From Lumbricus rubellus (Eukaryota; Annelida; Clitellata; Crassiclitellata; Lumbricidae), in the NCBI GenBank assembly GCA_945859605.1, contig OX243827.1, forward strand, positions 28,809,641 through 28,873,640: DNA of 64,000 nucleotides. The letters run 5' to 3'. Position numbers and translations under genes: made by a program. The notes under the pieces are model-generated. The model saw only the letters and a list, made by a program, of their open reading frames with translations, was not told the DNA's origin and made no database searches. This document shows, piece by piece, positions 9,928-63,600 of the stretch (positions within the stretch are counted from its first letter, which is position 1; every line of letters starts with the position of its first letter).

Positions 9928-12900
9928 ATTCTGATCAATTACTAGACTTTGCTCCAAACATTACCTACTTCTCACAGCCGCAGGATGTCGCTCTCATTGG
10001 ACGAAGTATCACGCTAACGTGTTTTTTCTCTGGAAAGTGAGTCAATCCTCAATCTAGCGCTTGTTATCAATATTTACTTTACTCTATCGCAAATTTACTT
10101 AACTAACAACACCTTTTTGGAACCTCACTAGTCCTATTCGTATTTGAAATGAGCTATATCATAGAATCTAGATTTCTTAAAACAAGTCATATCCTAATGT
10201 AGCGTGTAAAAATCATACACTTTTAAATCACTTTAAAATTGAATACAAAGTTGCCTGCCGTACATGTGGGCCTATATTTTTACATCTAACAATACTGAGT
10301 TTCATAAATCTCTCGTCTTTTTTATTTTCCTCTGGGTGGGCTGGGAGCGCTGCTGAGTAGGCTATGTTTCTTAAAGGGACGCTATATAAGTCAACAACAG
10401 TACTGTGAGCGTAATAATGATGGTACTTTAGTAGCATACTGCATTTTCTTTGTTTCAATAGGCCATTGCCTACGATTACCTGGTCAGGACCAAGTAGTGC
10501 GTTACCCTATGGCAGACACAGTTTCTCGTCTTTTGAAACGGAACTTACGATTTCAAAAATAAGCGAATATGATGAAGGAAACTATGTATGTTCGGCAACA
10601 AATTCCAATGGCACTGCACAACATTCTTTTAATATTTGTGTTGAAGGTAGGTCCGAATCTTGTTCTACTTCCATTAAGTATCGGTAGGCCTATATTTTGA
10701 CAGTCCTGATGATATCAAGCAATTCGATCCATTTCTTGGAAGATTTGACACAATAAAAATGGTTGTCAAGCAACATTAGGCCTCATTTTGCAACATTTTA
10801 CCGTGCAAAAGGAAGTATAAAATGAAACATTTTGTTTTATACCTCAAATTTACCAACACATTGGCTAATGGCTATCACGAACTGCACGCCAACTTGATAC
10901 CAGTCGCACTTGCCCATGTTGTTTTGACAGGCCTATAAGGCTATAACTAGGCCTACTTCCATTTCTTTAGTTTCATATAACTTCGAACAATTTTCTTGCA
11001 GCTGCCCCTAAATTCATCCAAAAGTTAGACGGTCCACGCGATGTCAATGTGACAGAAGGTGATTCCATTACCTTCAACTGCTCCGCTTTCGCCAAACCAA
11101 ACGCGACTGTTGTCTGGCTTCGGAATGGACATCCGATAAACGGTAAAACACAGACAGGGATTGTTTTAAATTATCCCTATTTAGAAAGGAACACGTACGG
11201 ATTGCCTCTTGATTTTATTCTCCACCGTAGCACTTTGATTTTGTTATTCTGTGAATTGTTCACTCGTGATATGGATGCCAGTACCGGTACTTATATTAAT
11301 GGCTGTTGAGGCCATGTATTATAGTAATAGCCTACGTAGTTTTTTTCGACTACCGAGTTATCTGAGGTGCCTATGGTAAAAACAGTAGTAGCCTAATGCT
11401 AAAATAATCTTAGATAACACAACAATTGAAAAGTCATGTTGAAATGGAACTATCGAGCAGAGGGACAGCTTGCGAGAGTTGGATAAAATTGATGACGGGT
11501 TTATTTATGGTATTGCTAGGCATAAGTAACTGTGTAAATTGTGTATTTGTACTGTGTAGGCATAATTAGGCTACAACAGCCTCGTAAAATTATCGTAATA
11601 TTATTTGTATATCTAAGTGCACGCTCATTATCTCTGGATGAAGGAGTGTCATTGACAAATAGACTTTATGTTTATATAGTCACTAGGGCGCCCGTGAGAT
11701 TTGTGTTCAGCAACGATTTGAAGAGTCTGACGATCAGAGACGTTTGTCGAGACTGCGTCGACCGAGAGAGTAAAACGGATCTGATGGTTATTCAATGCAA
11801 TGCGAGCAACGTTCACGGATACACTTTTGCTCAAGGATACCTAAACGTTATCAGTAAGTCGTTGTCTCCGCAATTATCAGTAGGCCTGTCAAACCGAGTT
11901 TAGAAGGGAGCAAGCATTTTGGTCACTGCATTCGATTTAGCCTCCATAATTAAATAAAGTTCTAAGTTCATGAAAGCTTGGTCTTGTAGACTAGCTATAG
12001 GGCCTACCTAGAAATCTGAGCGATTTTTATGTAAACTATATGTCCCGTTCCTTATTGCCTCCTCTCTAATGCCATGTGTTCCTAGTACTAATAGTAGGCT
12101 ACCTAGCCTACCTGTGCAGTGTGCACACTGCACAGGGTTCGTTTATGTTTCAGGCAGTAGTACAGAAAGGCAGAAAGGTATCAGCGTTATACCAAGTGTG
12201 CCACCAACAGTTTTATTTTGAAATAGCTAATTAATCGACAGTCAACTAACAATAATATCATTGTGTGGTAGTATTTGAAATTTGCATGTTCCTATTTTAC
12301 ATGTATCAGCACTTTGTGTTGTTCTTCAAGTGAGAACAAAAGTGACGATTAGAGGGTCAAAACATACAACAGTTGATTTGCTGAATAGAAAAGAGCTCGC
12401 CTATCAGTGTCAAGTAACTTCTGATCCAAGTACACCTCCGACTGCGCGATGGTACAAGACAGAACCCTATGGTGACTTAGTTCGTGATGAACCGCCTTAT
12501 ATCTATGTGATGAAGGAGTTCTTGATTATAATGTTTAATCCAAACTGCTCTGCCAATTGCTCTAAATACCTCGGAGAATACATATGCGTTGGTGACAACG
12601 GGTACAGTAGAGAAAATCGCACCATAAAACTTGCCTACAGGCCACCAGGTGAGCACATACTAAGACAACATTTTCTATTGCAAATGATGGTGATACCGTA
12701 AATTATGTGTTTAACTCAACTTATGATTAAACTAATGACTGGAGGCAGCGCACCATAGATGGCTGAGGGGCATTCAACATGTATCGTCGCGGGACACAAC
12801 AACTATTACAAAAAATCATAGGAGAGAAGACGGGACACGAAGATATGGATAACATCATTAGAAAAAAAGATTGAGGTGGATATGACATGTTATTCGCATG

Positions 12901-14838
12901 GACGACGATCAAAGAACCAAACAGATAATGGCCTGGAATGCTGGAAGTAAAAAAAGAGAGGAATACCATGAAAAACCTAGTAGGACACTATCGGAGATGA
13001 CTTGAGATGTCTGGAGATGTCATGGGAGGAGGCTGAAGAACTGGCGATGGAAAGAGACGAGTAGCCTGATGAGCAGATCTGCATGCACGGGATGGACCAA
13101 GAAACAAAGTTAGTATGACCAAGCCGGTTAATGAACTTTCGGATATGAATAATGGATTCACTGAAAATGAACTTGAATTTTCGATCCTTCTTTTTCTAAT
13201 TTGCACTGATCAGAATAACTCGATGTAAATGAAGTATGGTTATTAGATAAGTAAGTACGTAAGCAAACATTATTTTTCTTTATCAATCCATTTGCAAACG
13301 CACAATATGGCATGAAACATCATTATAATGCATCGAAGTAGGCCTAATAATCGGTAATAAAACTTGCAAAAATAAATCACAAGATGTTCACTATCTAGTG
13401 ACAATTATTTCATAAACGATGGATTAATTTTTTAAAGAATAAAAGCCAATTTCAGACGCCAGAGATGTTTTGTTGTCCAGAAAACATTTTCCGAATTTCT
13501 AGCAGAGAATATTTCTTTTGCAGCGGGAGTCATAGAGGAAGAAGAGACACGGGCCTTGTGGAAGATCATTCTAGTTGCCGGTTCTATTGTTCTGGTCGTA
13601 CTTTTCATTGGAATAGTCGTTGTTCTGTGTTCCGATCGCCGTTTCGATGGTAAGCAGTGATTTGCCCTTAAAGTTTATAAGACCAAAATACACGTAGCCT
13701 ATTAGGCCTACTTGGATATGTTTAGGGCATTGACCTAGGCTACTCTGAACGCGAAATATTAGGCTTTTTTCGAAGTAGAGTAGAATATGACTTTAAGAAT
13801 TGTACCGCAGTTCAAGAGAATTTGATATAATTTCAGCACGAAAGTTAAAAAGAAGGTAGCTCTCTGTTTGAATGACATATTGTGGTGGAAAAAAGAAACG
13901 GTCACGGATAGCTTTATTCTCTTCCGGGATCTCGCACATTGGGTGATTTAAAAAAGTCTAAGGCGTACATTGCCCTACAAACAGTGGAATACAACGAATT
14001 GTCGAGAGGTCCGTTTACATATTTTTGTGTAATTCTGCATTGAAATTTCACAATAGTGAAAGAACGCTGCTAAAATGGAATCGACACAAGCGGATCGCAG
14101 CTACACACGTAAGCCAACATCCACACAGAGATAATTATATATTAGGCCTATATATAGGCACTATAAAGTGACTATAATGTTTGCATTTCAGATGACAAGA
14201 GACAAACGGTACAAAGAAGAATGCTATATGCAGACTTAAGTATGTATGAAGATGTAGGATACGATTCAATCGGCCTCCCTTTGGAAGAAATGGCAGGGAA
14301 CTACGAAAGATCGATGCCACAAGAAGGCCGCAGGCATGAACGTGTAGATTATGCTTCGATTGGTCAGGTGTCGGAGGAAATGGGACGAAGAGCAGAGGGG
14401 ATGCCACGCTACAGCAGAAATGAGTCAACAGATTTGCCACAAAATGAAGTAGTAGGCCGAGTTGGACAGAGGCTTGACGAAGACGACACGTATGACGACA
14501 CAAGATGCTCAAGCACTTTGGAAGAAGCGAGAAATGCTGGGAAAATAAATCAACAGCAACAAATCACCGGTTTCGAATCAGTGGAAAATGAATCTGATAA
14601 GTTTCCTAGTTCAGATGAGCAATCAGAAGCAGCGAAAACTTGCTTGAACCTGGACCGATTGGAAGAGCATTCGTACTTAGAGTTAAGTCCAACGGAGGAT
14701 CATTCTTATTTGGATCTGTCATCAAAAGACGTTGAACCTTGCATGGATTATGGATATGACGACACTGGATGCTTAGTCCATCTGGAAGAAGCGAGAAATG
14801 ACGGGGAAACAGATCACCAGCAAATCAACGGTTTCTAA
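9928..14838 (+). CDS. IgR1: L1CAM-like Ig receptor, 5' part missing from window
   Basis: Seven exons join in frame: 9928-10036 and 10462-10646 (Ig3), 11002-11142 and 11680-11853 (Ig4), 12331-12648 (Ig5, L1 Ig6-like), 13524-13649 (transmembrane), 14192-14838 (tail, TAA stop). Together they give about 565 residues. Phases are 2 within Ig3 and 1 at the other junctions, as in the paralogues. Signal-peptide, Ig1 and Ig2 exons are not found; the truncated gypsy copy lies immediately upstream, so they are either beyond it or lost. The membrane segment follows an acidic EEEE stretch and is rich in Ile, Val and Leu. The tail has ITIM-like VGYDSI (14254-14271) and VDYASI (14344-14361) and an ITAM-like pair (Y codons at 14674 and 14707, YLEL-x7-YLDL). 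A 264-bp internal duplication of the tail is cut by the stop. Probable role: cell-surface adhesion or recognition receptor (inference). Confidence 0.8.
10335..10400 (+). mobile_element. LINE 3'-end fragment
   Basis: Carries the block GGGCTGGGAGCGC...TGAGTAGG...CGCTATATAA, which recurs at the 3' ends of several other LINE remnants in this window (for example 41340-41670). It lies in an IgR1 intron. Confidence 0.6.
12743..13115 (+). mobile_element. Decayed LINE ORF2 C-terminus
   Basis: Conceptual translation gives RWIGHVIRMDDDQRTKQ and nearby remnants, the usual C-terminal end of LINE reverse-transcriptase proteins (W-x-GHV-x-R-M). Stops and frameshifts interrupt the rest. It sits between the IgR1 Ig5 and transmembrane exons. 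Confidence 0.65.
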
Positions 14839-17515: not shown

Positions 17516-20500
17516 ATGAGAGACATCTTCGCTCTGCTAGCTGTGGTCTGCCTGTGTCACATCTTTTCCACTCAAAGCGACGGTAAGTCGTCTACATAGA
17601 CGTCGAGCAATGACACAATAGCGTGTTTCTCTCTACAACTACGATGTAGATCTATATCATACGCCTTTGCTTTTCGATGCATGGAACGCCATTTACAATA
17701 AGCTAGCATTTTTTAAGCGGGGGGTGGGAGGCCTTACAATTATTGCATTTCTCAAAGTGTAGGCCACTTTCAGTTTATCATTATTTTCTCTGAGTAATAA
17801 CGTAATTTAAGCTTGCTTATGTGTTAGTAATCATAGAGGTAGGTCTAATACCGTATCATTCATTCAGTCATTCCGAACTTTTACAGTACAGCGCTCTTTC
17901 AAGGAGCCTACCCAAAGTCGCTACCAGCCCAGCTACGGCACAGAGGAAGGTCTTGAGCACCTGGCAGAAATCAGGCAAAATAAGCGGAAGCTGATTCCAA
18001 GTGAAGGGGCCAACAATCGAGAACACTCGACGTTGTCAGACCAAAGAGCAGACCATAGGGACCTGCATAAGTACCCCTAAGCTGAAGAGAGCAAAACTCG
18101 ACTGGAGGCTAGTTAAGTTGGAAACAGGGGCGTTGCGAGGGTGGAGACTAGTGCAAAACATCGCGCATAAACAAAAACCAGAGCATAATAATTATCATTT
18201 TTGAAAATATGAAAAAAATTAGCCGAGCAGCTCAGCGAAAGACCCGGATAAAGAAGAAACCAAATGTGTTGCCACAGACGCCTTATTCCAGAATATGTAT
18301 TGTATGTAGGCCTATGTGTGCGTGTGCATGTGCGTGCGCGTGCATGCGAATGTAGCCTATTAGGACACTTTGCATATTTGGTTTTGGTTCTATATCTGCC
18401 TTACCGTTTGATGTGGGTCTCTTTAGTAGGCATACTCTTAGACAAATTGGATGGGCGACAGTTTGATTATTATTCTGTTACTATTAGTCGTCTGTCTGGT
18501 TTTGGTGTGATGCAAGGAGTTGACCACACATTTTATTCGGAATGCTCCAATTTTTCAGTTCGACTGCCACCAGAATTAAACCGAAGTTCGGAAGCAAAGC
18601 TCATCGTTTACCGTTCGGGAGCGTCTGTAACATTGGAGTGCGTTGCCAATGGAATGCCAGGTGTGAGGCAAGTTAAGAGATTAATCATGTAGGCCTATCG
18701 TCAGATCTAGATGTAGGCTAAAACGCTATTGTGAGACCATCCGGCGTAATTTGTAATAAATGTAACAATAATTAGGCTATATTATTAGACCATATGGATT
18801 GTGATAACCAAGTATAAATAAGGCACTGTATTATTTTATGCTCTGATGATTCCTTTAATTTTAGGTCATCATTCAAACAGAAATCACCAATTTATCTGCA
18901 TTTATTTAGAAGGTAGACCCATAAGTATACTTCTATAATAGGCTTCCCTACATTATTCACTGATATTCAGTGCGATGTCAAATAATAATTATGACTAAGA
19001 ACTGGATCAAAGCACCAGCTAGCAAATAGAAAGTACGGTATGAATTGATATTTTGTGACAGACTGTGTTTCTCTGCATGTTCGTGTCCTAAGATAATTTG
19101 TCTGAATTTGTCCAGAAACAGTTAATTGTTAGAAAGAACCAGTAGCGGCGCTATAGGAAGGCTACGGGCGGGGGCTAAGCAACCCCAAAGGCCATCCATT
19201 TTTTCTTTCTGAAATATTTAGGAGATTAGCCCCCCCCCCAATGAACCAGATGACTACAAAAAGGTCGTCTGAAATTTTTGCAGTGAAAATGGAAAAATTT
19301 CTTCCGCGAGTTCAGACCCTCAAAACTGAAATCCTGGAGCCGCCACTGGAAAGAACTTTCTATTGAATCGTTGCAGGTATGAGTGGGCGAAGAACGGCGT
19401 TCGATTAAACACAACTTCGAAAAATACCCGTTACGCAGCAGATGGCATTGGTACAATAACGATAGACAGAGCCGGAAATGCGGACGAAGGATACTATCGG
19501 TGCTTTGCAACAAATCGATATGGCACAGCTATCTCAAACACGACAGAGATTAGGATGGCATTCATCTACTCCACTGCAGGAGTTTTTCTTATTCGTCGGA
19601 TAGGCGTGTACGAGGGAATGCCAATTTATATTCAAGGCGAACATGATTCACATGAAGAATGTTTCCCGAAACCCTCGTTCCGTTGGGGCGCAGCATCCAG
19701 ACCATCTTCTCCACGACCGATTTACCTGTCGCCTACAAAAAGACTTCAGATAGATGAGAAGGGTTAGGTCATGGCTGTTTTAAAGGAATTTTTAGAACTG
19801 CACATTGCACAACTTTTTCTTTCCTTTCCCATCCTCCATGGTAAATTAGGCCTACTCCCAATCGGAGAACAATATCCTTTTTGCTGGCTTTAACTGTAGG
19901 CTACAGGAGTGCTTCTACAACTGCACATTTTTTGTACAACTGCCCGCTAAAAAAGCCCTGGGTGAGGTTACTTTTAGTCTTTAATTTAATTTAACATCTT
20001 CAGCAATCTACACTGTAAAAACTGCTTTGAAATTTAGCTTGCTGAGCAGTACTGTTACAGTACCAGTGGACCTAATTCATTCTCAGGTTTTCTACAGCGC
20101 ATTTATGAGTTATGCCTTATAACAAACGAGTGTTTATCACATAGCCTACTTCATTATTTTTCTATTAAAACGGCAACATTTCGTCTGATATCCCTGCTGT
20201 AGGATATGTTCACCCTATTTTTTACTCGAACGCCTGTACGTTAAACCCTACTCAGCCTACTGCAATGCAGCAGTTCAACCGAACGGCGATTTTTTTATGA
20301 TCGCCGCTTCTACATGGATCAAAAATGACATGCTCCAGCCAGTGATTTTTAAGTAAGACACTCCTGCAAAAAATTATATTTTGCATTGTTAATTCAACTT
20401 GATATGTTCTCTTTTGCAGGGAACCTTCACTTTGCTCATGCTGTTCCGGAAGATGCTATTGATGGAGCAATTTACATGTGTATGAAATACAATCCTTTCC

Positions 20501-23500: not shown

Positions 23501-24952
23501 CTGTGAAATGGTTCAAAATTGAACCATACGGTGACCCGGTTCATGATGAACCTCCCTACATCTTTGTGGAGGAGAATGAGTTTCTGATTATTGTGTTTTA
23601 TCCAAACTGTTCTGCTAATTGCACTAAGTATCTTGGAGAATACAGATGCGATGGTAGCAACATATACAGCTCTCAGACTGGAAAGATAAAAATCTCTTAC
23701 AGATATGGACTGCAAACAGGTAAAGGCATAGCATGTCTGCGTTTTTATTCTAAAGCTTCTCATTCTATATTTGCCAAAGTTGCTATAAATATTAAATAAT
23801 TACTGTGAATTATAGTTTTTTGCCCCGAGGTATATGTTTAAGGATCTCTAAGAAACTTCATTATTAAAATAGGGAACTGTTTAAAAACTAGTCCAGAATG
23901 GCCCCTCATATTTAATTTATTGCGCGATTACGCTTAGTGATATAAACTTACGAATCATCATTCTGTAAGAATTATCTGAAAGGTCACCGTGGTTTGTAGC
24001 TAATGACTGAGGAAATTTCCACATTCTATATTTCGGTGAATGTCTTTTACAGACAAATTCAGACGGAGCGGATATATGTGGATATCGTGGAAGATAATTC
24101 TAGGAGTAGGAGGAATTGCTGTCGTTTTGTTTCTCTTTGGAATTTTCCTTGGCTTCTTTTCGAATCGTCGTTCTGGAAGTAAGTAGCCTATCCTACTGAA
24201 TTTTATTTTTATTTTCTTGCATTATCAAACAACCAACCACCAGACACTGACATCTGAAATATAAATATTCAGCAGATAGATAACACAGGCTGAAATTTAT
24301 TCATAACTTCTTAAAGCGCACTGTAACACGATTCATTTTATGGGTTACTCTAAGTTGGATGAAAGAAAGTAAACAAAATAGGAGTGTTTAACCACTGAAG
24401 TAAAAATATATTAACGACTAAATCTCATGGAAAGTAGTTTAATAAGCGCTAAAAGTGCTAGTGCCATCTGCGCATTTAAAACTCTTATGCATTGATGGGG
24501 ATTTAAACTGTTTTCTTGGTCGACAATCCAGTCCGCAAACCCATTTTCCACCTCGTCAAACCATGTGGTCAGCCGTTGATAGATTTTGACGAACACGATG
24601 TGATGTTTCTACTACATGTATAATGATTTGTATTTCAGATGTCAGAAAACTTATGAAAAACAGGAAAGTGCCTAATCCCCCTAGTATGCAGGGACATGAA
24701 GGATATGATTCAGATAGCATTCCTCTGGAAGCAATAGGAAGAAATGAAAGATCGTTGCAAAGAGAAAGCAGCACATATGAATACATAGATTATGCTACAT
24801 TTCGTCAGATGTTGGAGGAAAAGGGGCGGACAGGAGGCACAATACCACGCCCGTCTGGTGCACACGCATATACCAGATATGAGTCAATAGATTCCCCGCA
24901 AGAGGAAGCAGTAAGTCGACTTGGACCTAGACTTGATGAAGACGACAATTAG
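17516..24952 (+). CDS. IgR2: L1CAM-like five-Ig receptor with truncated tail
   Basis: Eleven exons: 17516-17582 (signal peptide, MRDIFALLAVVCLCH), 18559-18667, 19377-19762, 20420-20548 (Ig1-Ig2), 20698-20809, 21659-21843 (Ig3), 22327-22467, 22655-22828 (Ig4), 23390-23719 (Ig5), 24053-24178 (transmembrane), 24639-24952 (tail). Joined length is 2073 bases: 690 residues plus TAG. Ig1 shows the L1-family signature YRCFATNRYGTAIS; Ig2 ends in the GNLHFA block; Ig4 ends QCNASNVHGYAF, like L1 Ig4. Fibronectin III repeats are absent. Intron 2 starts with GC (AG|GCAAGT at 18668) instead of GT. The tail stops at a TAG where IgR1 and IgR3 have a Tyr codon, and homologous coding sequence continues beyond it. 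The closest paralogue is IgR3. Type I surface receptor; ligand unknown. Confidence 0.87.
17872..18190 (-). mobile_element. LINE 3'-end remnant (minus strand)
   Basis: On the minus strand this matches the C-terminal and 3'-terminal part of the LINE at 58850-59330, including the block that ends in the AGCGC...TGTA terminus. It is broken by stops and lies in intron 1 of IgR2. Confidence 0.6.
19787..19962 (+). repeat. Unnamed interspersed repeat, copy A
   Basis: About 175 bp with TTTTTAGAACTGCACA at one end and CAACTGC...AAAAAAGCCCTG at the other. The middle carries a CCATGGTAAATT block. Related copies are at 21045-21228 (same strand) and 31869-32036 (opposite strand). The weakly inverted ends suggest a small MITE. 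Confidence 0.55.
21045..21228 (+). repeat. Unnamed interspersed repeat, copy B
   Basis: Shares TTTTTAAAGAATTTTTA..ACTGC, the CCATGGTAAATTG block, TAATCGGA and AGAACTGCACACTAAGAAAGC with copy A. It lies in intron 5 of IgR2. Confidence 0.55.
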
Positions 24953-28948: not shown

Positions 28949-28979
<31 letters not shown>

Positions 28980-50300: not shown

Positions 50301-53300
50301 ATTTATTTGGTTGTGCATGTAGAATAAATGATTTAAAACATGATATTATTTCTATCAAAGACCAATAATATTTACCATAGACATTGACTGACAATAATAT
50401 GCTATTGAATGATGAATATTAATGGCATTGTTATGATCTGTTTTGAAACATTTAACTGCTACTATGGAACTCGATGAATTCTGTAGCCTACTTTTTAACT
50501 ACACTGCATAATTTTGTATTGTCATTAACGACCTTTAATGTCATGTTTTGACGTTTAACTTTTGAATGAACCTGCAGTCCGGAGCCGACCATAGCCTGGA
50601 TAGGGCCAAGCAATTTATTTATTCTTCCATTTGGAAGATATGCGATGAATTCTTCTGATACAGAACTCATCATCTACAACATAACTGCAGCGGACGAGGG
50701 ATACTACATCTGCGCTGGTTCAAACATCGAAGGACGCAACACAACTACTCTTCAGATACAAGTTGAAGGTCTACAATTCATTTCATTATATCTTGAATCA
50801 ACATATTATAATAATAATAAATACACATTTTGAAACAAACTGATTTATAAAATATGGCTTTTATTTATTGATTGAAGTCTTTACTAAGAGGTCAAACTGG
50901 GTTTTTCTCTCTGCCTGGGAAAGCCTACCCACATGGAAAGAGTCTTATTTTACAACTTAATAACATAATTGAATAAAAATCGATGCACTATAATAATAAT
51001 TTTATTGCAAGTCTAAAATATTATATTGCGTAGAATATAGCCTAATTTAGTACCAGCTAGACAAAAGGTAGGCTATTATGTTAAATCTGCCTGCGTGGCA
51101 CGCGTCTTGACTTTTATCCTACTGTAAGGTCAACTTATCTTTTAAAGTGGAACTTCTAAGAACTAAGATAGGCATGATCCAATAACGAAACGTTTCTGCC
51201 ATAATTTATCGTAACATTGTAAGCATCAATTACAATAACCCTTTAATCTTTTACCCGTTTGCCCCGAGAATATCCGCTGAAAACGGGCTTAAAATTTAAA
51301 AATGAACTGGTAAAGGGTTAACTACATTTGCAAACAGCGGCGCCGAGGTTTCAGAGGATGATAGATGGTCCACGGAATGTTAACGCAACCGAAGGAGAAA
51401 CGGTTACCTTTAACTGCAGCGCCGTCGCAAAACCTCAAGCCACTATTGTCTGGCTTCAGAATGGACAGCCAATAGACAGTGAGTTCCAATGTGGTGAATG
51501 AACAATATTCAATTTGTTCAACATCTCTCTTGCTTCATAGTTAGGTCCACATGCTTGATTTGTTGAATACCATAATTTAGTCTTCTGTCTTAAAATCGAA
51601 GACTTTACTCAGAAACCTTGTAAAAGAAATCGTAAATTATGACGATAGCCTAATCCTAAACCAAATCTCGTCCTGTACGAGATAACAAGAGTTTGTCGTG
51701 CTCTACGAGCAGGTAAATTTAATTTCGTTGCTTGTTGCTCGTCTGTTTGCAACATTTGTGCCTTAATTAAAATTGTTCTTCATTGCGCTATTTGGCTACT
51801 TCAAACGACCCGTGCTTTTCACATAGTGATATCGAAGCGTGCATGGACGTTATAAGATCAAGTATGACTCTGACTGAAGGCGAAAAACCCAAATCATGTT
51901 TCACGATTTCCATTTTTTTAAAATAAATAAATAGGCTAATTAGTAGACAACAATAATTTCTTGAATTTCAATGTTTTAAGGTGACATTTATGCCGGTGGT
52001 GTTGATGGACTAAACTTGTGATTTTCGCCCAATATTCAAATATTGTAGGCCTATCAGAGTTTTTACACGGGCTTAGAGCAGCTATAGATAAGAGTTTCAA
52101 TTTCTATGCTTAAGTAATTGGCATTTTACAGCTGACAACCCTCCCAGACGATTTGCATTCAGCAACAACAAGAAAAGTCTGACTATCAGAAATGTTTGTC
52201 GAGACTGCATCGACCGAGAGAGTAAAACGGATCTGACGGTTATTCAGTGTAATGCAAGCAACATTCATGGATACGCATTTGCTTCTGGATACCTCAACGC
52301 CCTAAGTAAGTCTATTTGTATGCTCACTTAATAAACACCCACCTGGTATGCGTTGAGTGCTTTTTTCTTTCACCCCATCGTGTTATGCCCACGTGGTTGC
52401 CTTCGGCCATGAAACGATGAGTTCTTACAAAGATTGCATCTTGTCTTCCAAACCATTTTTACTTCGAGAATGATGTCCAAACTCCTTACGAGGATTGGGT
52501 TCTTACAATGGAAGTAATTTTCTCGATTTATTGTTCCTTCGATTTCAATCGTCCATTCGTTCGTTTCAAACTTTTTTTATCGCCTCTTTAAGAAACCTAC
52601 TCAGAGGCGCAAAATGTAGGTTATAGCTTATTGGAAACGTCATTCGACTGAAAGTGGTTACTTCACTGCCTTTTGTTAACAAGCAATAAATCTTCTATGG
52701 GATAAAAACAAAAGTAACTGTTAGCGTTCTGTACCTGGGCCTATTACAAATGAACTGTGGTGTTATCGATGCCCTTTTTCTTCAAGAATTTGAGAAATAT
52801 TAAATAGTTTCGTAAACATCATAATTATTATGATACGAACCTATTGAATATCTCTCAATTTCTTGAAGACAAAGGATTTCGATAACACCACATTTCATTT
52901 GTTAGCGTTGAAATTAGTAGTATAATTAACGTAACCTAGTATAGGCCTACATACATAGGCCTAGGCTAACAGGCCCTATTAATGGCACACTATTACTCTA
53001 ATTACACAAATATTTCTTTCTGTTGTAATTACTTGCTGACTTGTTTATTTCTTTATCGTAGTCAAGGTAAAAGTGATGATTCGAGGTCCGGAAAAAGTGT
53101 CGGTCGATTTTCGTGAGCAAAAGCATTTCATGTTTCAGTGTATAGCGACTTCTGATCCAAGTACACCTCCTACTGTGCGTTGGTACAAGATAGAACCCTA
53201 TGGTGATATGGTTCGCGATGAACCGCCTTACGTGTATGTTCACCAGGGGGTCTTGATGATTGTTGTTTATCCTAACTGTTCTTCTGAATGCGCTAAATAC

Positions 53301-56300
53301 CTCGGAGAATACAGATGCGTTGGTGAAAACGGATACAGCCAGGGAAACAAAACGATAGCACTTGCTTACGAGTACAAGCCTCAACCAGGTGAACACAATA
53401 CAGTTATTCCGTCCTATTATAATGCTATAACTTATGCTTAATTTTTGTACCAATGAATGATTCGAAGTTTGTGAACTGACGTTTAGAGACACAATTTCCT
53501 AAAGATTGCTATAATTTAGCACTTTACAATTACAAAATTAATGCAACATCGCCTTCTTTACAAAAGAGGATAATTTGTGAGATTCCATCATATTTTCTTC
53601 TTTATTCTTCTTCTTCTTCTTCTTCTTCTTCTTTTTTTCTTCTTCTTCTTCTTCTTTTCCTTCAGGCTTGAATTAATCCCTCTCAACGGAGCGGTCAGCC
53701 ACTCGGATCCTCCTCTTCCACTTTCCTCTGTAATTCGAAAGTGTACTTGGATCCATAGAGAAAAATTGGAGCAAAGTTTTTACAGCCGGATGCCCTTCCT
53801 GACGTCAACCCTTATCATATTTTAACTTATTAAAATAAACACATGATATAGGGCCTATTAATTTTGTATAGGCCTAATAATGAAATGAAGCTCAAATGAT
53901 TTAGACTGTGCATAGTTGCCTTAAACAATGAATTTCCGAATTGTTATGTTGTGGTATATATTTGTTACAGATCCTGTATGTATGCAAAATACGTGGGCAG
54001 TGTGGAAGACAATTTTGATTGCCGGAAGTATTAGTCTCGTTCTGTTTCTCATTGGGATTTATCTAGGCTTTCGTTGGAAGACAGGTAGGTCTATTGGTTG
54101 TGAGGATCCGATAGCATTCATGTTTTTTGTCACTGTAGGCCTACAGTGTACACGTTGTTATAGGGTCTTGACCTCGTGGTTACGGGGTTTAAATTTCTGC
54201 TCAACTTCAAATAAATTTGCTGAGAACAGGTTGATACATGTAGTGCCATATCGCCTTTAGTCGAAGTTTATGCTCTTTGTCGAGTATTCGTATTGCATTG
54301 CTTATAGAGCACCTCGCACAGAATGGACTTTTAAAGACACACTTTCAGTACAGAAGACCGGGGGGAATAAACGTCTTGAGAGAGCGAGAGGTTTCGATGG
54401 AGAGTCCACTGAGCCCCAGAATAAGCCTATCCTGTAAAAGAAGGGAAGGCCATTCCATATGGACTTTTATGGAGGGTCCAATCACTGCGAATGCCCGGAT
54501 TTTAGTCTAGGCACACTGAACACGAGGGAAAATAGGTCAAAACGGTCGGTAGAGCGCAAGGGCGAACTGATGTCGCAGAGACAGGCTTAATGTTAGCTGT
54601 GACTTTTCAGTTAAATTTGAATTGCTAAACGCTTCAAAGTCTATCGGAACGAATTAGGTCTAAGAATCTATCACAGTTTCACAGGCATGAGCGGTTGGTT
54701 CTCAGACACAAGGTAGAGTCAATTAATGTTGACATCAACTTTTCGGGGTAGCCTATCTGGATCAAGCTGTGTCAATCACGTTCGGCTATTAGAGGCGTCG
54801 GCATCCTCGGCACACGGGATAAAACCACCACACAGCAGTCCATGATAGATGACACAAATCTAGATAGGCCTATCTCTCATTAGCCTACAGCAGTGGTTCC
54901 CAATCTTTTTCGACTTTAAGGCCCTCTTTCTAAGTTTGGCGACACGAGAGCCACTAGAGACGCCAGAATAAAATAATTAGTTACATAAAATAATTATGTG
55001 TTCTATTCTGTCCTGGGCATGACGTTAAACTGCATCCATCCTCTGCCACAGGGAACCAACAACGTCCCTGTGCCGGTCCTAAGCCCGGACAAAATGAGGA
55101 AGGTTTGCCAGATGGGTGGCGATACACTGGCAGTGAAAAACCAAGACGATTGTAATCCGCCAAAACCACGACACAAGTAACATAGCTACCCAGATGCTTC
55201 AAGGTGTCATGATGTGAAGCAGACATGCACAGGTCGGTCAGGACAGACTGATGGAGAGGGTCAGGGGAGAGAGCGTGGGACACAACGGGCATTGACCCAC
55301 GTTGTCCTTCGTGCCTCTTTTTCACGATTCTCTTCAATCAGACAAGGTGGTTTAGATGCTCCAAGATGTCAATGGTATGGAGCAGACCTGCTGACCAGAC
55401 CGGTTGAAGCTGGGCAACATGGCACGAGACAGACTCAGACAGAGAGTGGCATCGGACTCTTACGGGCATTGAGCCTAAGGATATTGATGATGATTCTGTC
55501 CAAATTGTCAATTATGCAATATACAGGGTGGGCCAAAAGTATTTGTTCAACTTTGAAGGCCTATAACTTAGGCAGTTTAGCAAGTAAGTGTATGCTTAAT
55601 GCATCAAATTAAAGGTCGTTATATCAGCTATAAGTCCGACAAATTTCATTACGGTAGCTTGCACCACGCGCCATATAATTATTGTGTACCGCACCTACCT
55701 TGTTTTCTGACGTAAACAATAATTTCATCATTGCGCCGTTAACAGAAAATGACAGGACTTTGATTCGAATTTTAAGAATTGAAAAACATTTAAATGCATA
55801 TCAAATGATGAATGAATTTCCTACTAGAAACTGGAGTAAAAACAATCTCAACCGATTAATTAGACAAATTGACGCGAGTACAAGTTCTAAACTTAAACCT
55901 GTTACTGGCCGTCCTCGTTCGGCACGTACCGCTGACAACATCGCTCGTGTAGCTGAATTGATCTGTAGCCAAGAGGATAATCCAGGCACAAGCAAAAGTC
56001 ATCGAGCCACATAACTGGCCGCCTAATAGCCCTGACTTAAACCCGGTTGATTACTCAATCTGGGGTGCTTTGCAACAACGGGTTTATCGGGAACGGATAG
56101 TAAACGTCGAACATCTGAAGCGCGTCATCACTCGTTGCTGAACTGAGATCAGACAGGAACTCATCAATGGAGCCATAGATCAATGGGCACGTCGCATTCA
56201 TGCAGTCATTCGAGCTTGTGGAAGACACATTGAATATTTATTTGACTAAATAATTCTTGGATTTCTTAATGGCTATCAATAATGCAAACTTGCAAAGACT

Positions 56301-57790
56301 AATTTTCCAAGTATTGTGTTTTGCAAGATAGACGAATTAAAATCATTGTAAACTGATACATATTCAGTACAGTAGTTTTACGCAATTATTATTAAAGCTA
56401 AAAATGTAAATTTTTGACCAGTTGTAGCTGATATAACGACCTTTAATTTGATGCATTAAGCATACACTTACTTGCCAAACTGCCTAAGTTATAGGCCTTC
56501 AAAGTTGAACAAATACTTTTGGCCCACCCTGTATATTATTTTAAATATTTGAAAAATGAGGGCCATTTTTAAAGGCCTGTCGGCCACTTGGCCAGCGGGC
56601 CACGGTTTGGGAACCACTGAGTACAGTGTTGCAGAAGAAGACAAAGAGTTTCTGCTAAACAACCCAGAGAAACAGCCATAAAATATATGGATATAAAATA
56701 ACGTGGTGGTGACAACTTTCTTAACCAAGATCGATTGTGTTGCCAGTCGCTTTTCAATGACGTTCTCTCGCTATCTCGTGAGGCTATCGATATGAAGTTG
56801 ATAGAGTGCACACTGCACACGTTCTTGGGCGCCTCAATTGGATCAGAGATCATCATACTATAATCAACCCTGAACGAGATTTGAACCATGCCATAGCTGG
56901 TGGTTCGTGTTTGCTGCTGTCAAAGGTGCATATTTATAACATCGATTAATTATCTTTTCAGTTTAATGTTTTTCTTTTCAGCGATCTACCGGAGAACGAA
57001 ACACGTGAAACCTCAACATCCTCGGAACACGTACGCGCATGTAGACTATGATTCGGTTGGTGATTCTCTGGAAGGAATGGGAAACAAAAACAGATCGATG
57101 CCAAGAGCGCGCAGCGCGTATGAGCATACAGGTTATGATACAATTGATCATGCACTGGAAGACATGGCAAACAGAGAAGGGGAGATGCCCCACCAGGGCG
57201 TAGTGAGTCGACAAAACAGCTATGAATCGATGGATACACCGATGATAGAAGCCATAAACAGAGGTAGAGCGGCGATGTTGAATGAGAGTATCAAGTACGA
57301 CAACATGGGATATGCTATCCCTTTAGAAGAAATCGCCAATCGTGGTGAAATGAACGAAAATAAAGTTCACGGTTATGACTCAGTCATAGGTGAAATTGGA
57401 GAAAACTCAAGTGCAAATGACCAGTCAGAAGCAAAGAAAATCTATTCCGATGTGAGCCGAAGGGATGTAAATTCCGACTTGGATCTGGTTCCGGCGGAAG
57501 TCAGTCATTATTTGGATCTTTGTTCAAAGGAAGAAACTCCCTACATGGATATGGGTAAGAAGAAAGTGAATCCTTATATGACTTTGGGTCAGAATGAAGT
57601 AAATCCCTACATGGATTTAGTTGAGAAAGAAATGGGTCCAGACGTGAATATGGTCCAGAAAGATGAAGATCGTTATTTGGATATGAGTAAGAAGGATATG
57701 GATTCACATTTGGATAAGAGTCCATGCACTAGCAGCGCACCAACACCTACGACTAAATGTGATGCGGACTACCTCGTTCTCAAAAACTAA
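44342..57790 (+). CDS. IgR4: intact L1CAM-like five-Ig receptor with ITAM-like repeat tail
   Basis: Eleven exons: 44342-44408 (signal peptide MKTLISILYLAFR), 45820-45925, 46560-46930, 47996-48124 (Ig1-Ig2), 48274-48373, 50578-50768 (Ig3), 51338-51478, 52132-52305 (Ig4), 53062-53388 (Ig5), 53971-54084 (transmembrane), 56982-57790 (tail). Sum 2529 bases, exactly 842 codons plus TAA. Approximate residues: Ig1-Ig2 23-224, Ig3 225-321, Ig4 322-426, Ig5 427-533, membrane 547-567, tail 574-842. Ig2 lacks the B-strand Cys. The tail has ITIM-like VDYDSV, ITSM-like TGYDTI, then 11-residue repeats with Y750, Y761, Y772, Y783 and Y805, and a terminal YLVL (Y837). YMTL-x7-YMDL fits the ITAM consensus; YMDM and YLDM fit PI3K SH2 sites. 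Probably a type I surface receptor signalling through tyrosine phosphorylation (inference). The tail is the only undamaged one in the window. Confidence 0.9.
45515..45650 (+). mobile_element. LINE C-terminal fragment
   Basis: Encodes a short run with RGRRGRPHMPYRM and W-T-G...QAIRPAQ, a GRPR/W-T-G-x-x-x-x-x-A pattern typical of LINE protein C-termini. Intron 1 of IgR4, directly before the 26-bp palindrome. Confidence 0.5.
45653..45711. repeat. Perfect 26-bp inverted repeat with 7-bp loop
   Basis: Left arm 45653-45678 (starts GTTCGAACTTTGG, ends CAAAGGAC) and right arm 45686-45711 are exact reverse complements around GATCTGC. Confidence 0.9.
45949..46330. mobile_element. hAT-like MITE with perfect 8-bp target duplication
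   Basis: Starts CAGGGGCGGATGCAG and ends with the inverse of CAGGCATTGCAGAGGCGGAT. CATACACA flanks both sides (45941-45948, 46331-46338). The inside has the ATACACCATTTTC/GACCTTTT blocks of the family at 28398-28782. It lies in intron 2 of IgR4. Confidence 0.78.
46384..46470 (-). mobile_element. LINE 3'-terminus remnant (minus strand)
   Basis: ATAGCGCCCCTTGAAG...CTCAGAGGCGCTCCC is the reverse complement of the shared LINE 3' end. The adjoining 40-bp block GAATGCAGAGCGGACACTGC...TTTCACGCCGAAG recurs at 61203-61240. Confidence 0.6.
47060..47300 (+). mobile_element. LINE 3'-end remnant
   Basis: Contains GTCTGGAATAGCCTTCC (encodes VWNSLPSELR), then AGTCGGGAGAGCTTCTGAG and GGAGCGCTATATAAATG, the shared LINE terminus. 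It lies in intron 3 of IgR4. Confidence 0.7.
47490..47655 (+). mobile_element. LINE 3'-end remnant with ATTGT tail
   Basis: Ends in AGAGCGCGGTATAAATGACT followed by a TTGTA/ATTGT simple tail (about 47632-47655), the form expected of a reverse-transcribed LINE 3' end. Confidence 0.65.
48434..48489 (+). pseudogene. Relic duplicate of the Ig3 first-half exon
   Basis: Sixty bases after the real IgR4 exon (48274-48373) is a degenerate copy: ACTATTGCTATAATTGGAGG...CTCAGATG then TTTTCTATGGATA with a retained GT donor (48490). It resembles the IgR2/IgR3 form of the exon (TIAVIGES...LRCFFYGY) more than IgR4's own. A deletion around the Cys codon creates a TGA, so it cannot be used. Confidence 0.7.
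48491..50577 (+). other. Rest of IgR4 intron 5
   Basis: About 2.1 kb of AT-rich intron between the two halves of Ig3. Apart from the relic exon and the 33-bp repeats at 49718-49813, I see no gene, RNA or recognisable transposon. Confidence 0.5.
49718..49813. repeat. 33-bp tandem repeat, about 2.9 copies
   Basis: Unit TCTATTATAGCCTACACATG plus ATAGTTTGAGCAG at 49718, 49751 and 49784; the last copy is slightly shortened. Intronic (IgR4 intron 5). Confidence 0.85.
52585..52625 (-). mobile_element. LINE 3'-terminus scrap (minus strand)
   Basis: CGCCTCTTTAAGAAACCTACTCAGAGGCGC is, reversed, the shared LINE 3' end with most of the body lost. IgR4 intron 8. Confidence 0.5.
53597..53660. repeat. (CTT)n microsatellite
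   Basis: CTT/TTC run with one T-rich interruption; IgR4 intron 9. Confidence 0.85.
54891..56619. mobile_element. hAT-like element interrupted by a mariner
   Basis: Left end CAGTGGTTCCCAATC and inverted right end CAGTGGTTCCCAAACC, the terminus style of many hAT MITEs. The flanks share only TACAG, so the target duplication is unclear. Without the nested mariner it is about 0.7 kb and has no recognised transposase. It lies in intron 10 of IgR4, between membrane and tail exons. Confidence 0.7.
55524..56531 (+). mobile_element. Internally deleted Tc1/mariner transposon, 1008 bp
   Basis: Terminal inverted repeats of 107 bp (55524-55630 and 56425-56531; one mismatch seen) begin CAGGGTGGGCCAAAAGTA and are flanked by TA on both sides. 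Inside, 55682-56014 encodes the N-terminal DNA-binding part (FPTRNWSKNNLNRLIRQID, then GRPRSART). It is followed out of frame by the C-terminal part with NWPPNSPDLNPVDYSIWG and one internal TGA. The middle of the transposase with the first two catalytic Asp residues is deleted. It is inserted in the hAT-like element at 54891-56619. Confidence 0.9.
57476..57739 (+). repeat. 33-bp coding repeat of the IgR4 tail (11-residue ITAM-like units)
   Basis: About eight units of 33 bp, each coding for an 11-residue block of the form Y-[LM]-[DT]-[LM]-x2-K/N-x3-P. Tyrosines lead units 2, 3, 4, 5 and 7; the others start with D or H. Units 4 and 5 form YMTLGQNEVNPYMDL (57575-57619). IgR1 (14674 on), IgR2 (25121, after the stop) and IgR3 (39565 on, shifted frame) show the same period. 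Confidence 0.85.
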
Positions 57791-60677: not shown

Positions 60678-63600
60678 ATGTCGACAATGAAGATTCAGAG
60701 CCTGCATCTGCTGCTAGTCATCGCTGTTCACTGTTTCTTTTCAATAGCTACGGAAGACGGCGACGGTGAGTTCAGATGCATTTAAATTCCTAAAATTAAG
60801 ATTTTTATATCACGTTTTCATAATCAACAAAATTTTAAGGCGCTTTGACCTAGGTGTAGTATTAAAAGTCATTTTGAGCTAAATGTAGGCCTATTGTATA
60901 GCATCCGAGAAGAGCGTTTTGCAATTCTTCGGATTGTAGATTATAAAGCAGTTCGATCAAACTTCAGTAGTGTGAACTGAGCTACACAAAGGATACATGT
61001 AGATCTACTAGGCGTAGCCTACTCTCCAAAGTCTCCATACTTGCTTACCGTTTTTGTGACTTGACCTTTTGGGCACTAAAAATTCAGGACTGCGATTTCT
61101 AATAGGCCTACCTTACAACGAAGTACCCTTAACTGACGTTTGTTTGTATGTGCACTTGTTATAGCCCCCTCTCAAGCTCGATCTACTCAGAGGCGTCCCA
61201 GAATGCAGAGCGGACACTGCATCGGAGTTTCACGCCGAAGAGCGTTTGGATCAGTGGCAGTGCCAGTTACACAATTGCAGCAAGGCGCATCATTGTCATT
61301 GAAGTTGTTAGATGGTCTAAGAAATTAAATGTAGGGAAGACAATAATTACTTAAAATGTCAGAACAATTTTTGCAAAACAAACAATGATGATTAAATTTT
61401 CTCTCAGTGCAACTTCCACCTTCGTTCACACAACGTCCGAATGCGCATATCGTCTATCCGTCTGGTTCCATACTGCTTATCGACTGCAAAGCTGAAGGAA
61501 GTCCAGATGTAAAGTACGTAATATGAAATTACACTTAGTCTAGACCTACAGCAACTACACGCAGGGCCTACGATTTGCATTGCGTTTTTATTCAAGTTTG
61601 ATGTTGCACACAGGAAAGCCGACTTGCAGCTTATCAAAGTCAGTGGGACTTGATAACATGTATAGCTCGAGACTTCCTCTGAGTGTCAGGTCAATTCGGA
61701 ATAAATAGCCTAATTATTTGGAGCGGACAATTCGGAGTGTATCCGCGAATTTTGTTGTTTAAATAAGCTTAGAAGGTTAGCCTGTACAGGAAACAACACC
61801 CAACTAAAATCTTCCATACCGCATAATGGACGGCGGTTCAGAACACTGCATAGGCTATAACGCGGAGTGTGTTTTGCGTCATCGTTGCAGGTACACGTGG
61901 ACTAAGAACGGCGTTCAACTAGAGGGCCACATCAGAGATACCGCGACACAATTCGCGAAGCGTGGGGCGACATCAGATGACGAGGGAGTCTACCAGTGTT
62001 TTGCCAGCAATGAATACGGGACCGATGTCTCAGATAAGTCGCATGTCCAGATGGAATATGTAAAATCATCGCTAAGTACAAGAGCACGATACAACATGTA
62101 TGCTGAGCAGGTGAACGTTACGGAGGGTGAACCGTTGACTATTCTGGCTCCTCCGTTTGAAAGCGTTCCTCGGACGGAATGTGTCTGGATTGCGTTGTAC
62201 AAGGACGATCGGGGACGCTGCTTTCCCCAAAACACTGTAGTGCCGACAAAGCGAATACAGGTTGACAGAAATGGTAAAAGCTAGAAAGGCGCACGATTAT
62301 TTTAGTCAAATCTGTGTTGACGCAAACTATGAGAACTATGCAGAACATTTTCAAACTACCGATCAGCTGACTCCCTGAAACTTTAACATGCATGGCCTAT
62401 AATAGGAAAGTTCCATTGGTGCTTGTCTTGAATCAACATTGTTTTTGTCTCTGCAACAGCGTGTAACCACAAATGGGCTGCTTGAGAGTCTTGTCTATAA
62501 TAGGTCAACAATGCATTTACATATAGCCTAGGTACCTATGACTAAAACATTCGTATTTTGCCAATCCACTTAATGACTTCTTAATATCCTCCCGACCTCA
62601 CCGTAGCTTTCTGATAAATTATCTAAAATATTACTGGGCTGCACTAGGTAGGGGCCGATCCAGGAGGGCCAATCCGGTCATGCCCCCATAGCAAATTGCA
62701 TGGGACGTGGGTGGCTCCCCATTTGGTTTCAAGATAAAATATTTCGGCATGGAAAATGGTATCTTTTTCTGACATTTCCAGCGAATGATAAAAAAGGTTC
62801 ATCAGATTTTTTGGCAGAGAAAATGGTATCTTTTGTTTACATTCCGGGCGGATGAATTAAAAAAGGTGGGTCAAGATAATTTTCAGGCACAGATCACCGA
62901 AAATTTGGGCCCCCCCCCTCTAACATTTCTTTATCAGTCACTGGCACTAGGTTCGTGGAGACCTCATTTAAATTTTGTCTCTGTTAAAATGTCACGCAAG
63001 TGAACGAATACTTGTGGTTTTAAAATTCTTTAGGGCATCTTCACTTGGTCTACGCAGTTCCAGATGACGAGTCAGTGAGTAACTGTTATCAGCCGACATT
63101 TCGTTACAACTATACGACCTATTATGGAAATATCACGAACATAACGGTCACAAGAGGTAGGCCTAGTCTATGGTGCTTCCACGATAATTTATAATTTTCA
63201 ATTGCACTAAATTTTTTTATTCAATTTATTTCCTAAACCAATTATAATACAATGATGAATCCTTCCGTTTTGCAGCGTTCTTTACGACCATAGCAGAGTC
63301 TAACTGAATTATTGACCAACTTTCGATAGCCATACAAAAGCTTTCTTTTCTTCAAGAAATCCTTTTATTTTAAGGAATTTACCGTCTCGTGACGGACAGC
63401 ATTTTAATTTCTATCATTTGCACTCTGCTACATCGATTGACGATACATTGAGACACTAATTACTATATTATCTCATTGGATTGCTTTGTTACAGTTGGTA
63501 ACAACTCGCTCGAAGCCCTTCCAAGAATAATCTACTACTACGATCCGAGTGTGGCACTCCTTGGCAGAAATGTATCCTTCCGATGCATTTTTTCCGGATA
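60678..63600 (+). CDS. IgR5: L1CAM-like Ig receptor, 3' part beyond window
   Basis: Five exons: 60678-60765 (signal peptide; a second in-frame ATG at 60687 is an alternative start), 61408-61513 and 61891-62273 (Ig1 and start of Ig2), 63034-63156 (end of Ig2), 63495-63600 (first half of Ig3, ending in phase 2 before a GT donor at 63601). Together they code for about 268 residues in one frame. Ig1 has YQCFASNEYGTDVS, the L1-family F-strand signature; Ig2 ends in a GHLHLVYAVPDD block matching the paralogues. Intron 2 has a normal GT donor, unlike IgR2 and IgR3. It is the most divergent member seen. Its remaining Ig, membrane and tail exons should lie to the right of a long microsatellite at the window edge. 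Confidence 0.82.
61158..61260 (-). mobile_element. LINE 3'-terminus remnant (minus strand)
   Basis: Near copy of 46384-46470, including the 40-bp GAATGCAGAGCGGACACTGC block. IgR5 intron 1. Confidence 0.6.
62649..62943. mobile_element. hAT-like MITE with perfect 8-bp target duplication
   Basis: Starts TAGGGGCCGATCCAGG and ends near CAGTCACTG. GCACTAGG flanks both sides (62641-62648, 62944-62951). It carries two of the AAAATGGTATC...AAAAGGT repeats seen three times in the copy at 28398-28782. Intron 3 of IgR5. Confidence 0.75.

Follow-up and report, generated by a model that had tools for sequence, protein, structure and literature searches.

Evidence for a large cluster of L1CAM-derived Ig receptors without fibronectin repeats, and with apparently exchanged membrane modules, in Lumbricus rubellus

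Receptor copies in the window

Gene models place five Ig-receptor copies, A to E, on the plus strand of the 64-kb window (the whole stretch of DNA analysed, 64,000 nucleotides), all in the same orientation:

9928-14838, plus strand: copy A, gene model including splice borders and phases
9928-10036, 10462-10646, 11002-11142 and 11680-11853, plus strand: copy A exons 3a, 3b, 4a and 4b, gene model
12331-12648, 13524-13649 and 14192-14838, plus strand: copy A Ig6, transmembrane (TM) and tail exons, gene model
17516-24952, plus strand: copy B, 11 exons, gene model (signal peptide 17516-17582, tail 24639-24952)
28199-39502, plus strand: copy C, 11 exons, gene model (signal peptide 28199-28265, tail 39102-39502)
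44342-57790, plus strand: copy D, complete gene, 11 exons, gene model
45820-45925 and 46560-46930, plus strand: copy D exons 1a and 1b2a (Ig1 and start of Ig2), gene model
50578-52305, plus strand: copy D exons 3b, 4a and 4b (end of Ig3, Ig4), gene model
52132-52305, plus strand: copy D exon 4b, containing the CRDC and IQCNASN stretches
53062-53388, plus strand: copy D Ig6-like domain, one exon
53971-54084, plus strand: copy D TM exon
56982-57790, plus strand: copy D cytoplasmic tail exon, 269 aa
60687-63598, plus strand: copy E, first part, running past the window end (signal peptide 60687-60765, 1a 61408-61513, 1b2a 61891-62273, 3a ~63497-63598)

Homologous exons are collinear across A-E, and their intron phases are identical wherever an exon is present (signal peptide end 1; 1a 1-2; 1b2a 2-1; 2b 1-1; 3a 1-2; 3b 2-1; 4a, 4b, Ig6 and TM each 1-1; tail start 1), with similarity between copies far above chance (tblastn E as low as 3e-44). 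The original prediction of five copies with one exon order on one strand thus holds for strand, order and phases where exons are present, but the whole signal-Ig1-4-Ig6-TM-tail set occurs in the window only in B, C and D. Its complete receptor of 842 codons plus stop ('IgR4') is copy D, with a joined coding sequence of 2529 nt.

The remaining copies are partial in different ways. Signal, Ig1 and Ig2 exons of copy A were not found in readable sequence; the DNA upstream of this copy holds masked letters and an element of Ty3/gypsy type. Exon 2b of copy E was not detected; its exons 3b, 4a and 4b follow beyond the window at 64195-66553, no Ig6 exon is detectable in the examined downstream flank, and a different membrane segment lies at ~67.1 kb (hydrophobicity, read by eye). 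Ectodomain frames and splice sites are intact throughout B, C and D, allowing for GC-AG donors after 18667 in B and after 31107 in C, and exon by exon in an upstream copy, Z. The tail of B meets an in-frame TAG at 24952 after 104 aa, the tail frame of C ends at 39502, sooner than in A and D, and the tail of Z is shortened by a stop; together with the 5' truncation of A, these shortened tails raise the possibility of decay in part of the array. Transposable-element frames are interspersed among the copies (by eye).

The copies in the window belong to a far larger set. Contig C20 contains, in a span of 1.7 Mb (28.31-30.01 Mb), at least 60 exons of type Ig4b and 43 of type Ig6, so that the predicted 'at least five' receptors, while correct for the window, was a large understatement. 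Exon 4b is the best conserved (mean amino-acid identity between copies 79%, against 60% for Ig6 and 35% for 1b2a), and the Ig1 exons 1a and 1b2a are the most divergent of the ectodomain. By eye, the expected Ig2 B-strand cysteine is absent from the 1b2a region of copy D. Of the 57 pairwise dN/dS estimates that could be computed, 56 fall below 1 and 37 lie between 0.20 and 0.50, which argues that coding sequence has been retained; the same values lend no support to positive selection on the outer domains, the sole value above 1 being 1.4 for exon 1a between B and C. Alternatively, most of the array might be in birth-and-death decay, with few genes still functional, which would fit the missing Ig1-Ig2 exons of A, the tail stops in B and Z, the frame change in the C tail and the transposable-element frames. 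This reading seems to us very unlikely given the dN/dS values, the intact ectodomain frames and splice sites of B, C, D, Z and a further gene, F (below), and the absence of stops from 42 of the 43 Ig6 matches on C20.

L1-family ancestry

Proteins of the L1CAM family (L1CAM, CHL1, NrCAM, neurofascin, neuroglian) have six Ig domains, several fibronectin III (fn3) repeats and a FIGQ/EY ankyrin-binding tail, and combine homophilic adhesion with ankyrin coupling. The best PDB match of copy D is neurofascin 155 (E 9.9e-50), with residues 20-426 forming a single collinear match to residues 10-402 of neurofascin 3p3y (E 1.8e-40); among Pfam families, I-set and Ig_3 match best, and V-set is above cut-off (48.9 vs 26 bits) but weaker and overlapping. 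Contactin-2 is nearly equal as a PDB match (E 1.4e-49), as would be expected if the copies belonged to the contactins or to another Ig family with an Ig1-4 horseshoe. Contactins, however, are GPI-anchored, and sister copies within the cluster carry the L1-specific FIGEY tail, leaving a non-L1 origin extremely improbable.

These sister copies occupy the two ends of the C20 cluster. Eight copies are followed by a PF13882 (Bravo_FIGEY) match, which exceeds the curated cut-off in six; one copy (L059) was read at sequence level and seven were assigned by position. L059 reads through Ig2b-Ig3-Ig4-Ig6-TM-FIGEY, and a three-frame Pfam search from its Ig4b onward places I-set below and Bravo_FIGEY above cut-off. 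No fn3 was found between Ig4b and tail in that search, nor by Pfam in the joined exons of copy D. PF13882 was not found in copy D or the window region, and none of 25 FIGEY matches falls in the window or in C20 28.34-29.85 Mb. In the Ig6 tree a long branch parts the tyrosine-tailed rows from its three FIGEY-tailed loci (91/97).

A dispersed L1 gene on contig C18 provides a reference within the same genome. In the 20 kb examined (splice borders approximate) it encodes Ig2-Ig6, fn3 repeats and FIGEY, Ig1 not being seen within that distance, and its Ig6 is a single exon while Ig3, Ig4 and Ig5 are each split. Copies B, C and D have five Ig domains rather than the canonical six, and a two-exon Ig5 was not found. 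It is because of its single-exon structure that the fifth domain is assigned to Ig6, as profile scores are weak and fail to separate Ig6 from Ig5 (E 0.16 vs canonical Ig6, 0.093 vs Ig5b). Exon 4a is slightly nearer canonical Ig5a (3e-7) than Ig4a (2e-5).

An L1 origin of the cluster copies is thus well supported at the sequence level, as is the expansion of an L1CAM-type nerve-adhesion gene into a very large cluster without fibronectin repeats; L1 descent, fn3 loss and an Ig1-4 plus Ig6-like ectodomain had all been predicted, and each is borne out. Compared with the L1CAM family, the cluster shares Ig1-4 collinear with neurofascin and, on sister copies, FIGEY, but comprises dozens of copies with neither fn3 nor Ig5 found, and the window copies have a tyrosine-motif tail instead of FIGEY. 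The proposed likeness to hemolin, a secreted protein of four L1-like Ig domains without fn3, is partial only: its match to copy D is weaker (E 1.3e-31), B-D have five Ig domains, and A-D carry a TM exon and a signalling-type tail. Hemolin is described as a single gene linked to insect immunity (PMC11999971).

Tyrosine-rich tails and adhesion-GPCR forms

Fourteen distinct genes, A-D included, carry a new, unrelated tail. In the copy D tail, 13 of 16 tyrosines lie in YxxPhi (0/5000 shuffles as high), among them a YLDL/YMDM/YMTL/YMDL run with 11-residue spacing, and four motifs are YxxM, typical of PI3K SH2 binding. Defining ITAM as YxxL/I pairs at 6-8 residues and ITIM-like as [SIVLT]xYxx[LIV], the tail of A (14192-14838) contains two strict ITAM pairs, YADL-x7-YDSI and YLEL-x7-YLDL (0/5000 shuffles), and that of D one (P 0.017); no ITAM pair was found in the tails of B and C, and ITIM-like motifs are present in both. 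Pooling one tail piece per gene (14 genes, 86 tyrosines, 2000 shuffles) gave YxxPhi at 50 tyrosines (shuffle mean 16.9, maximum 29), 25 ITIM-like motifs (mean 4.0, maximum 12) and 4 strict ITAMs (mean 0.13, maximum 3), none of the three counts being reached by any shuffle. The tail of the core copies is thus replaced by one rich in ITAM/ITIM-like tyrosine motifs and built like the signalling tails of immune receptors. The original prediction noticed neither this change of tail nor how large the cluster really is.

The ITAM and ITIM labels denote short motifs that also fit endocytic signals, and YxxPhi is equally the consensus of the AP-2 clathrin adaptor. The copies might accordingly be scavenger receptors that internalise bound ligand through AP-2, with no ITAM/ITIM signalling, as the 50 of 86 YxxPhi tyrosines would allow; we consider this quite unlikely in view of the ITAM spacing in A and D, the enrichment of ITIM-like residues before tyrosine and the four YxxM of copy D.

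Further along the cluster, Ig exons alternate with adhesion-GPCR exons. In the model of gene F, which covers the exons from Ig1 on, an open reading frame continues in phase from Ig1-4 to an HRM-like exon lying 331 bp past 4b, with a phase-1 to phase-1 splice from Ig4 to the receptor module. The HRM match (15.8 vs 26.2 bits) and the TM1 exon (15.7 vs 20.6) are below Pfam cut-off; downstream follow GPS (PF01825, E 5.8e-13) and a 7tm_2 exon (PF00002, E 6.8e-9), the model covering part of the seven TM exons. For 12 of 17 plus-strand 4b exons in this zone, a GPS exon occurs 6-15 kb downstream and before the next 4b, an order matched by 0/5000 random or circularly shifted sets; the 6-15 kb limit was picked after the data were seen, and widening it to 26 kb gives P = 0.0008 against random sets and 0.03 against circularly shifted ones. 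For 8 of 25 GPS exons in the cluster, the nearest upstream feature within 26 kb is not an Ig exon. The L1-type Ig head is therefore probably also carried on seven-pass receptors, and at least three membrane modules appear to bear it, one of them, the GPCR module, by gene model. The 'single membrane segment' predicted for the family does not extend to the cluster at large, where the ectodomain occurs with an L1 tail, a tyrosine-motif tail and, as modelled, a GPCR module.

A putative recognition repertoire

We propose, with a probability of about 0.6, that the copies are germline-encoded cell-surface receptors that arose through successive duplications of an L1CAM-family gene, with swaps of tail or module, and that constitute a recognition repertoire. 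On the sequence evidence, an L1-type gene lost Ig5 and the fn3 repeats, giving the Ig1-4 plus Ig6 form that persists with its ankyrin-binding FIGEY tail at both cluster ends, and the array to which the window belongs acquired the unrelated tail dense in YxxPhi, partly ITAM-spaced and partly ITIM-like. On the gene models, Ig1-4 in a third zone is spliced onto an adhesion-GPCR module (one gene read as a model, others by position). The variable outer Ig1-Ig2 may serve as ligand-binding domains, with other family members among the possible ligands; the tyrosine tails may be substrates of Src-family kinases and, once phosphorylated, recruit SH2 proteins, with the distal ITAM-like run activating and the proximal ITIM-like motifs inhibitory, and GPCR forms might signal via G protein once ligand releases the tethered agonist. 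We infer an immune or allorecognition role, in which one recognition head would serve several output modules.

L1-family descent, the FIGEY tails kept on sister copies and the prevalence of dN/dS below 1 would equally suit a neural or epithelial cell-identity code, in which the copies sort or wire cells like clustered protocadherins or Dscam and the tyrosine tail regulates adhesion rather than immunity. We regard such a code as rather unlikely, since the core array has an ITAM/ITIM-like tail where no FIGEY match occurs, Ig1-Ig2 are strongly divergent, and the at least 60 Ig4b exons are separate and spread out as gene copies.

It is tempting to speculate, though we hold this somewhat doubtful, that the whole 1.7 Mb is a single L1CAM-derived recognition complex whose Ig1-4 head has been joined to three kinds of output: an adhesion tail that binds ankyrin, a tyrosine tail of ITAM/ITIM type and the seven-pass module of an adhesion GPCR. 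The activating, inhibitory and G-protein arms of such a germline repertoire would be convergent, and an immune or allorecognition complex would have come directly from a nervous-system adhesion gene, its intermediates side by side. The Alr allorecognition complex of Hydractinia (41 genes) is similar as a large IgSF family in one complex, with ITAM/ITIM motifs reported in candidate genes (PMC11999971, PMC12065747). Its extracellular domains are described as unusual V-set and I-set types (PMC11999971), and L1 ancestry, a FIGEY tail and GPCR forms go unmentioned in the excerpted description. Likewise, the fester co-receptors (FcoR) of the Botryllus fuhc locus are IgSF receptors whose long tails are described as bearing ITIM, hemITAM and core YxxI/L/V motifs, but their domains are given as V-type Ig, sushi and C2-type Ig, with L1 ancestry unmentioned in the portion of the source used (PMC12065747). 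The L. rubellus tails would represent one more case, next to these two, of independent convergence on ITAM/ITIM signalling (PMC12065747).

More generally, one genome holds a series of forms, from L1 with fn3 through fn3-less copies with FIGEY to an immunoreceptor-like tail and, apparently, a GPCR, and the series suggests how a neural adhesion molecule may turn into a recognition receptor. The old question of a neural CAM origin of immune and allorecognition receptors would thereby become directly testable. Gene F resembles adhesion GPCRs in that its Ig4 is followed by an HRM-like exon, a GPS motif and 7tm_2 exons, but its modelled N-terminus is the L1-type Ig1-4 head common to the neighbouring single-pass receptors, and the recognition repertoire may possibly be displayed in part on adhesion GPCRs.

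Exon structure and divergence of the window copies

Exon cores were located by comparing the copies with one another and then extended to splice borders. The complete set comprises a signal peptide exon, 1a, 1b2a, 2b, 3a, 3b, 4a and 4b (the end of Ig4), a single exon for an Ig6-like domain (hereafter Ig6), a transmembrane (TM) exon and a tail exon, and all 11 of 11 are found in B, C and D, three of the five plus-strand Ig-receptor copies A to E. The joined model of D has 842 codons plus stop, exactly as originally predicted. The same prediction credited all five copies with one exon order and one set of intron phases; phases are indeed identical in A to E wherever an exon is present, but the eleven-exon set is confined to B, C and D. 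The first exon of A is 3a, and E runs on beyond the window end. In both B (window 18667-18668) and C (31107-31108), exon 1a is followed by a GC-AG splice donor, an unusual type. By eye, an open frame belonging to a Ty3/gypsy-type retrotransposon, 2144 aa long (216-6650), lies upstream of A, a second piece at 8816-9523 repeats its start, and a reverse-transcriptase-like frame, apparently of non-LTR type, sits in an intron of C (34714-35844).

Mean pairwise amino-acid identity among the window copies is 40% in exon 1a, 35% in 1b2a, 49% in 2b, 52% in 3a, 48% in 3b, 67% in 4a, 79% in 4b, 60% in Ig6, and 43% in both TM and tail; the minimum and maximum again fall on 1b2a and 4b when Z, the copy upstream of the window, and F, a gene downstream of it, are added. 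Values of dN/dS are below 1 in 56 of 57 computable cases, 37 of the 57 lying at 0.20-0.50, with exon 1a of the B-C pair (1.4) as the exception; six further comparisons gave no value. The outer domains thus vary most, and the dN/dS values do not demonstrate positive selection. By eye, Ig2 lacks its expected B-strand cysteine in B, C, D, E and Z, while F keeps one at that place.

Placement in the L1 family and the missing fn3 domains

A Pfam search of joined D returned six Ig-domain families over cut-off and no other family. Among PDB entries, its ectodomain matches neurofascin 155 best (E 9.9e-50), with contactin-2 nearly equal (1.4e-49) and hemolin lower (1.3e-31), so that sequence alone gives L1/contactin. 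L1 is preferred over contactin because PF13882 (Bravo_FIGEY), the ankyrin-binding intracellular region of the L1 family, is found at copies in the same cluster on contig C20. Of 25 PF13882 matches in the genome 21 are over cut-off; eight of the 25 belong to the cluster, six passing the cut-off and two falling short of it, and these lie 3.4-8.0 kb downstream from Ig4b exons of the window-copy family. According to excerpts of PMC2597720, the FIGQY ankyrin-binding motif is common to L1-CAMs of fly, worm and vertebrates.

One FIGEY-type cluster copy (L059) reads in the order Ig2b, Ig3, Ig4, Ig6, TM, cytoplasmic exon and FIGEY exon; a three-frame Pfam scan from its Ig4b on gave Bravo_FIGEY at 39.2 bits, over cut-off, I-set at 19.3, below cut-off, and no fn3. 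This absence in the scanned part of L059 speaks against FNIII exons hidden in introns and, with the lack of fn3 in the joined exons of D, supports the loss of FNIII repeats that had been proposed. Outside the cluster, a dispersed L1 gene located on C18 combines Ig domains with at least four stretches of fn3 and a FIGEY exon; within the 20 kb fetched, in which Ig1 is unseen and splice borders are approximate, Ig3, Ig4 and Ig5 have two exons each and Ig6 one. The fifth domain of the window copies was read as Ig6 because it too is a single exon, although Ig6 and Ig5 cannot be told apart by profile score and, for exon 4a, canonical Ig5a is a slightly closer match than Ig4a. A 4b-type exon also occurs in dispersed relatives at C16:1.10 Mb and C17:1.84-1.88 Mb, and in the C16 copy (L049) the exons from 2b through Ig6 follow the cluster's order, with a candidate TM of L1-like type.

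Cluster zones and tyrosine-rich tails

Genome searches with the D Ig6 exon found at least 50 places among 58 candidates, at least 43 of them on C20 at 28.31-30.01 Mb, and with exon 4b at least 76 among 85, at least 60 of them in the same interval. Positions of Ig6, 4b, PF13882 and GPS (an adhesion-GPCR part) matches divide the cluster into four zones.

Zones of the cluster on C20
28.31-28.34 Mb: zone 1, two FIGEY copies
28.34-28.94 Mb: zone 2, mostly Ig6-bearing copies, including the window
28.89-29.63 Mb: zone 3, Ig4b and GPS exons in alternation, with 24 of the cluster's 25 GPS exons
29.70-30.01 Mb: zone 4, copies that mostly bear Ig6, FIGEY being present in the last six

The remaining cluster GPS exon (1 of 25) is at 28.39 Mb. 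The tail profile scan covered 32 loci plus 164 kb surrounding the window; within that scope, all copies with a seen tyrosine tail, which replaces FIGEY, fall in 28.34-28.94 Mb. In an Ig6 tree of 32 rows (L046 and L059 being one locus) plus canonical Ig6, with the two left-edge FIGEY copies left out, tyrosine-tailed rows and the three FIGEY-tailed loci included lie on opposite sides of a 0.5 branch with support 91/97, in a tree whose bootstrap is unsettled, with 15 of 29 inner branches open and tail type lacking for many rows.

A search of the D tail exon found no tandem repeat, which speaks against its being low-complexity tandem DNA. In this tail, 13 of 16 tyrosines lie in YxxPhi motifs (shuffle mean 3.4; 13 reached in 0 of 5000), with one strict ITAM pair (P 0.017) and three relaxed pairs (P 0.007). 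The A tail has two strict ITAM-spaced pairs (reached in 0 of 5000 shuffles); B and C have none, and carry two (P 0.016) and three (P 0.0006) ITIM-like motifs, respectively. One piece per gene was pooled from 14 genes, several of these pieces being cut by locus ends, and the resulting 1595 aa with 86 tyrosines contain 50 YxxPhi motifs (mean 16.9 and maximum 29 in 2000 shuffles), 25 ITIM-like (4.0 and 12), 12 Yx4YxxPhi (0.8 and 5) and 4 strict ITAM (0.13 and 3). The shuffles preserve nothing but composition, and the genes, being relatives of one another, are not independent trials. The distal ITAM-like run is kept in A and D; the tail ends before it in B (stop, 24952), in Z (stop) and in C (frame change, 39502). 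These early ends could be decay, or B, C and Z could be short-tailed partners of long-tailed forms.

From the large cluster, the divergence of the outer domains and the tail motifs, we infer that these receptors may serve in recognition, in analogy to Alr of Hydractinia (41 genes) and FcoR of Botryllus, both as presented in excerpts of PMC11999971 and PMC12065747. No L1-derived cluster of this kind is described in the titles and abstract openings of the best few matches in open-access PMC, which is not proof of absence. Other dense I-set groups in this genome, from 150 of 1988 candidates scored, lie at C3:46.18-46.37, C8:24.6-24.75, C17:12.57-12.61, C1:0.48-0.50, and C7:2.77-2.79 and 22.4-22.57 Mb.

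Probable joining of Ig exons to adhesion-GPCR parts

In gene F, exons 1a to 4b are all in frame, and an HRM-like exon follows 331 bp after 4b with matching phase (15.8 bits, under the 26.2 cut-off). Further downstream come a GPS exon (5.8e-13) and two 7tm_2 exons, of which one passes the cut-off (6.8e-9) and the other falls short. The Ig-GPCR order was read at sequence level in F, from exon 1a onward, and by position in all other cases. A genome search with the GPS exon gave 38 matches among 41 candidates, 25 of them in the C20 cluster. For 17 of the 25 an Ig exon is the nearest upstream feature within 26 kb, a loose count that is not telling alone because Ig exons are dense. Chance adjacency was addressed more strongly by an ordered test, although its distance limit was picked after data inspection: 12 of 17 plus-strand 4b exons of the GPS zone have a GPS 6-15 kb downstream with no other 4b in between, against a mean of 3.3 for random sets and 4.2 for circular shifts (12 reached in 0 of 5000 of each). 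With a 26 kb limit, 15 of 17 4b exons have a GPS (P 0.0008, random; 0.03, circular shift). Downstream of 4b, Ig6 only occurs in 39 cases, GPS only in 13, both in 3 and neither in 5 (Fisher P 7e-7), so the two are largely alternatives after a 4b exon, with the caveat that the zones are grouped in space. A second small GPS group, with five matches related to the gene F receptor, lies at C3:11.67-11.79 Mb.
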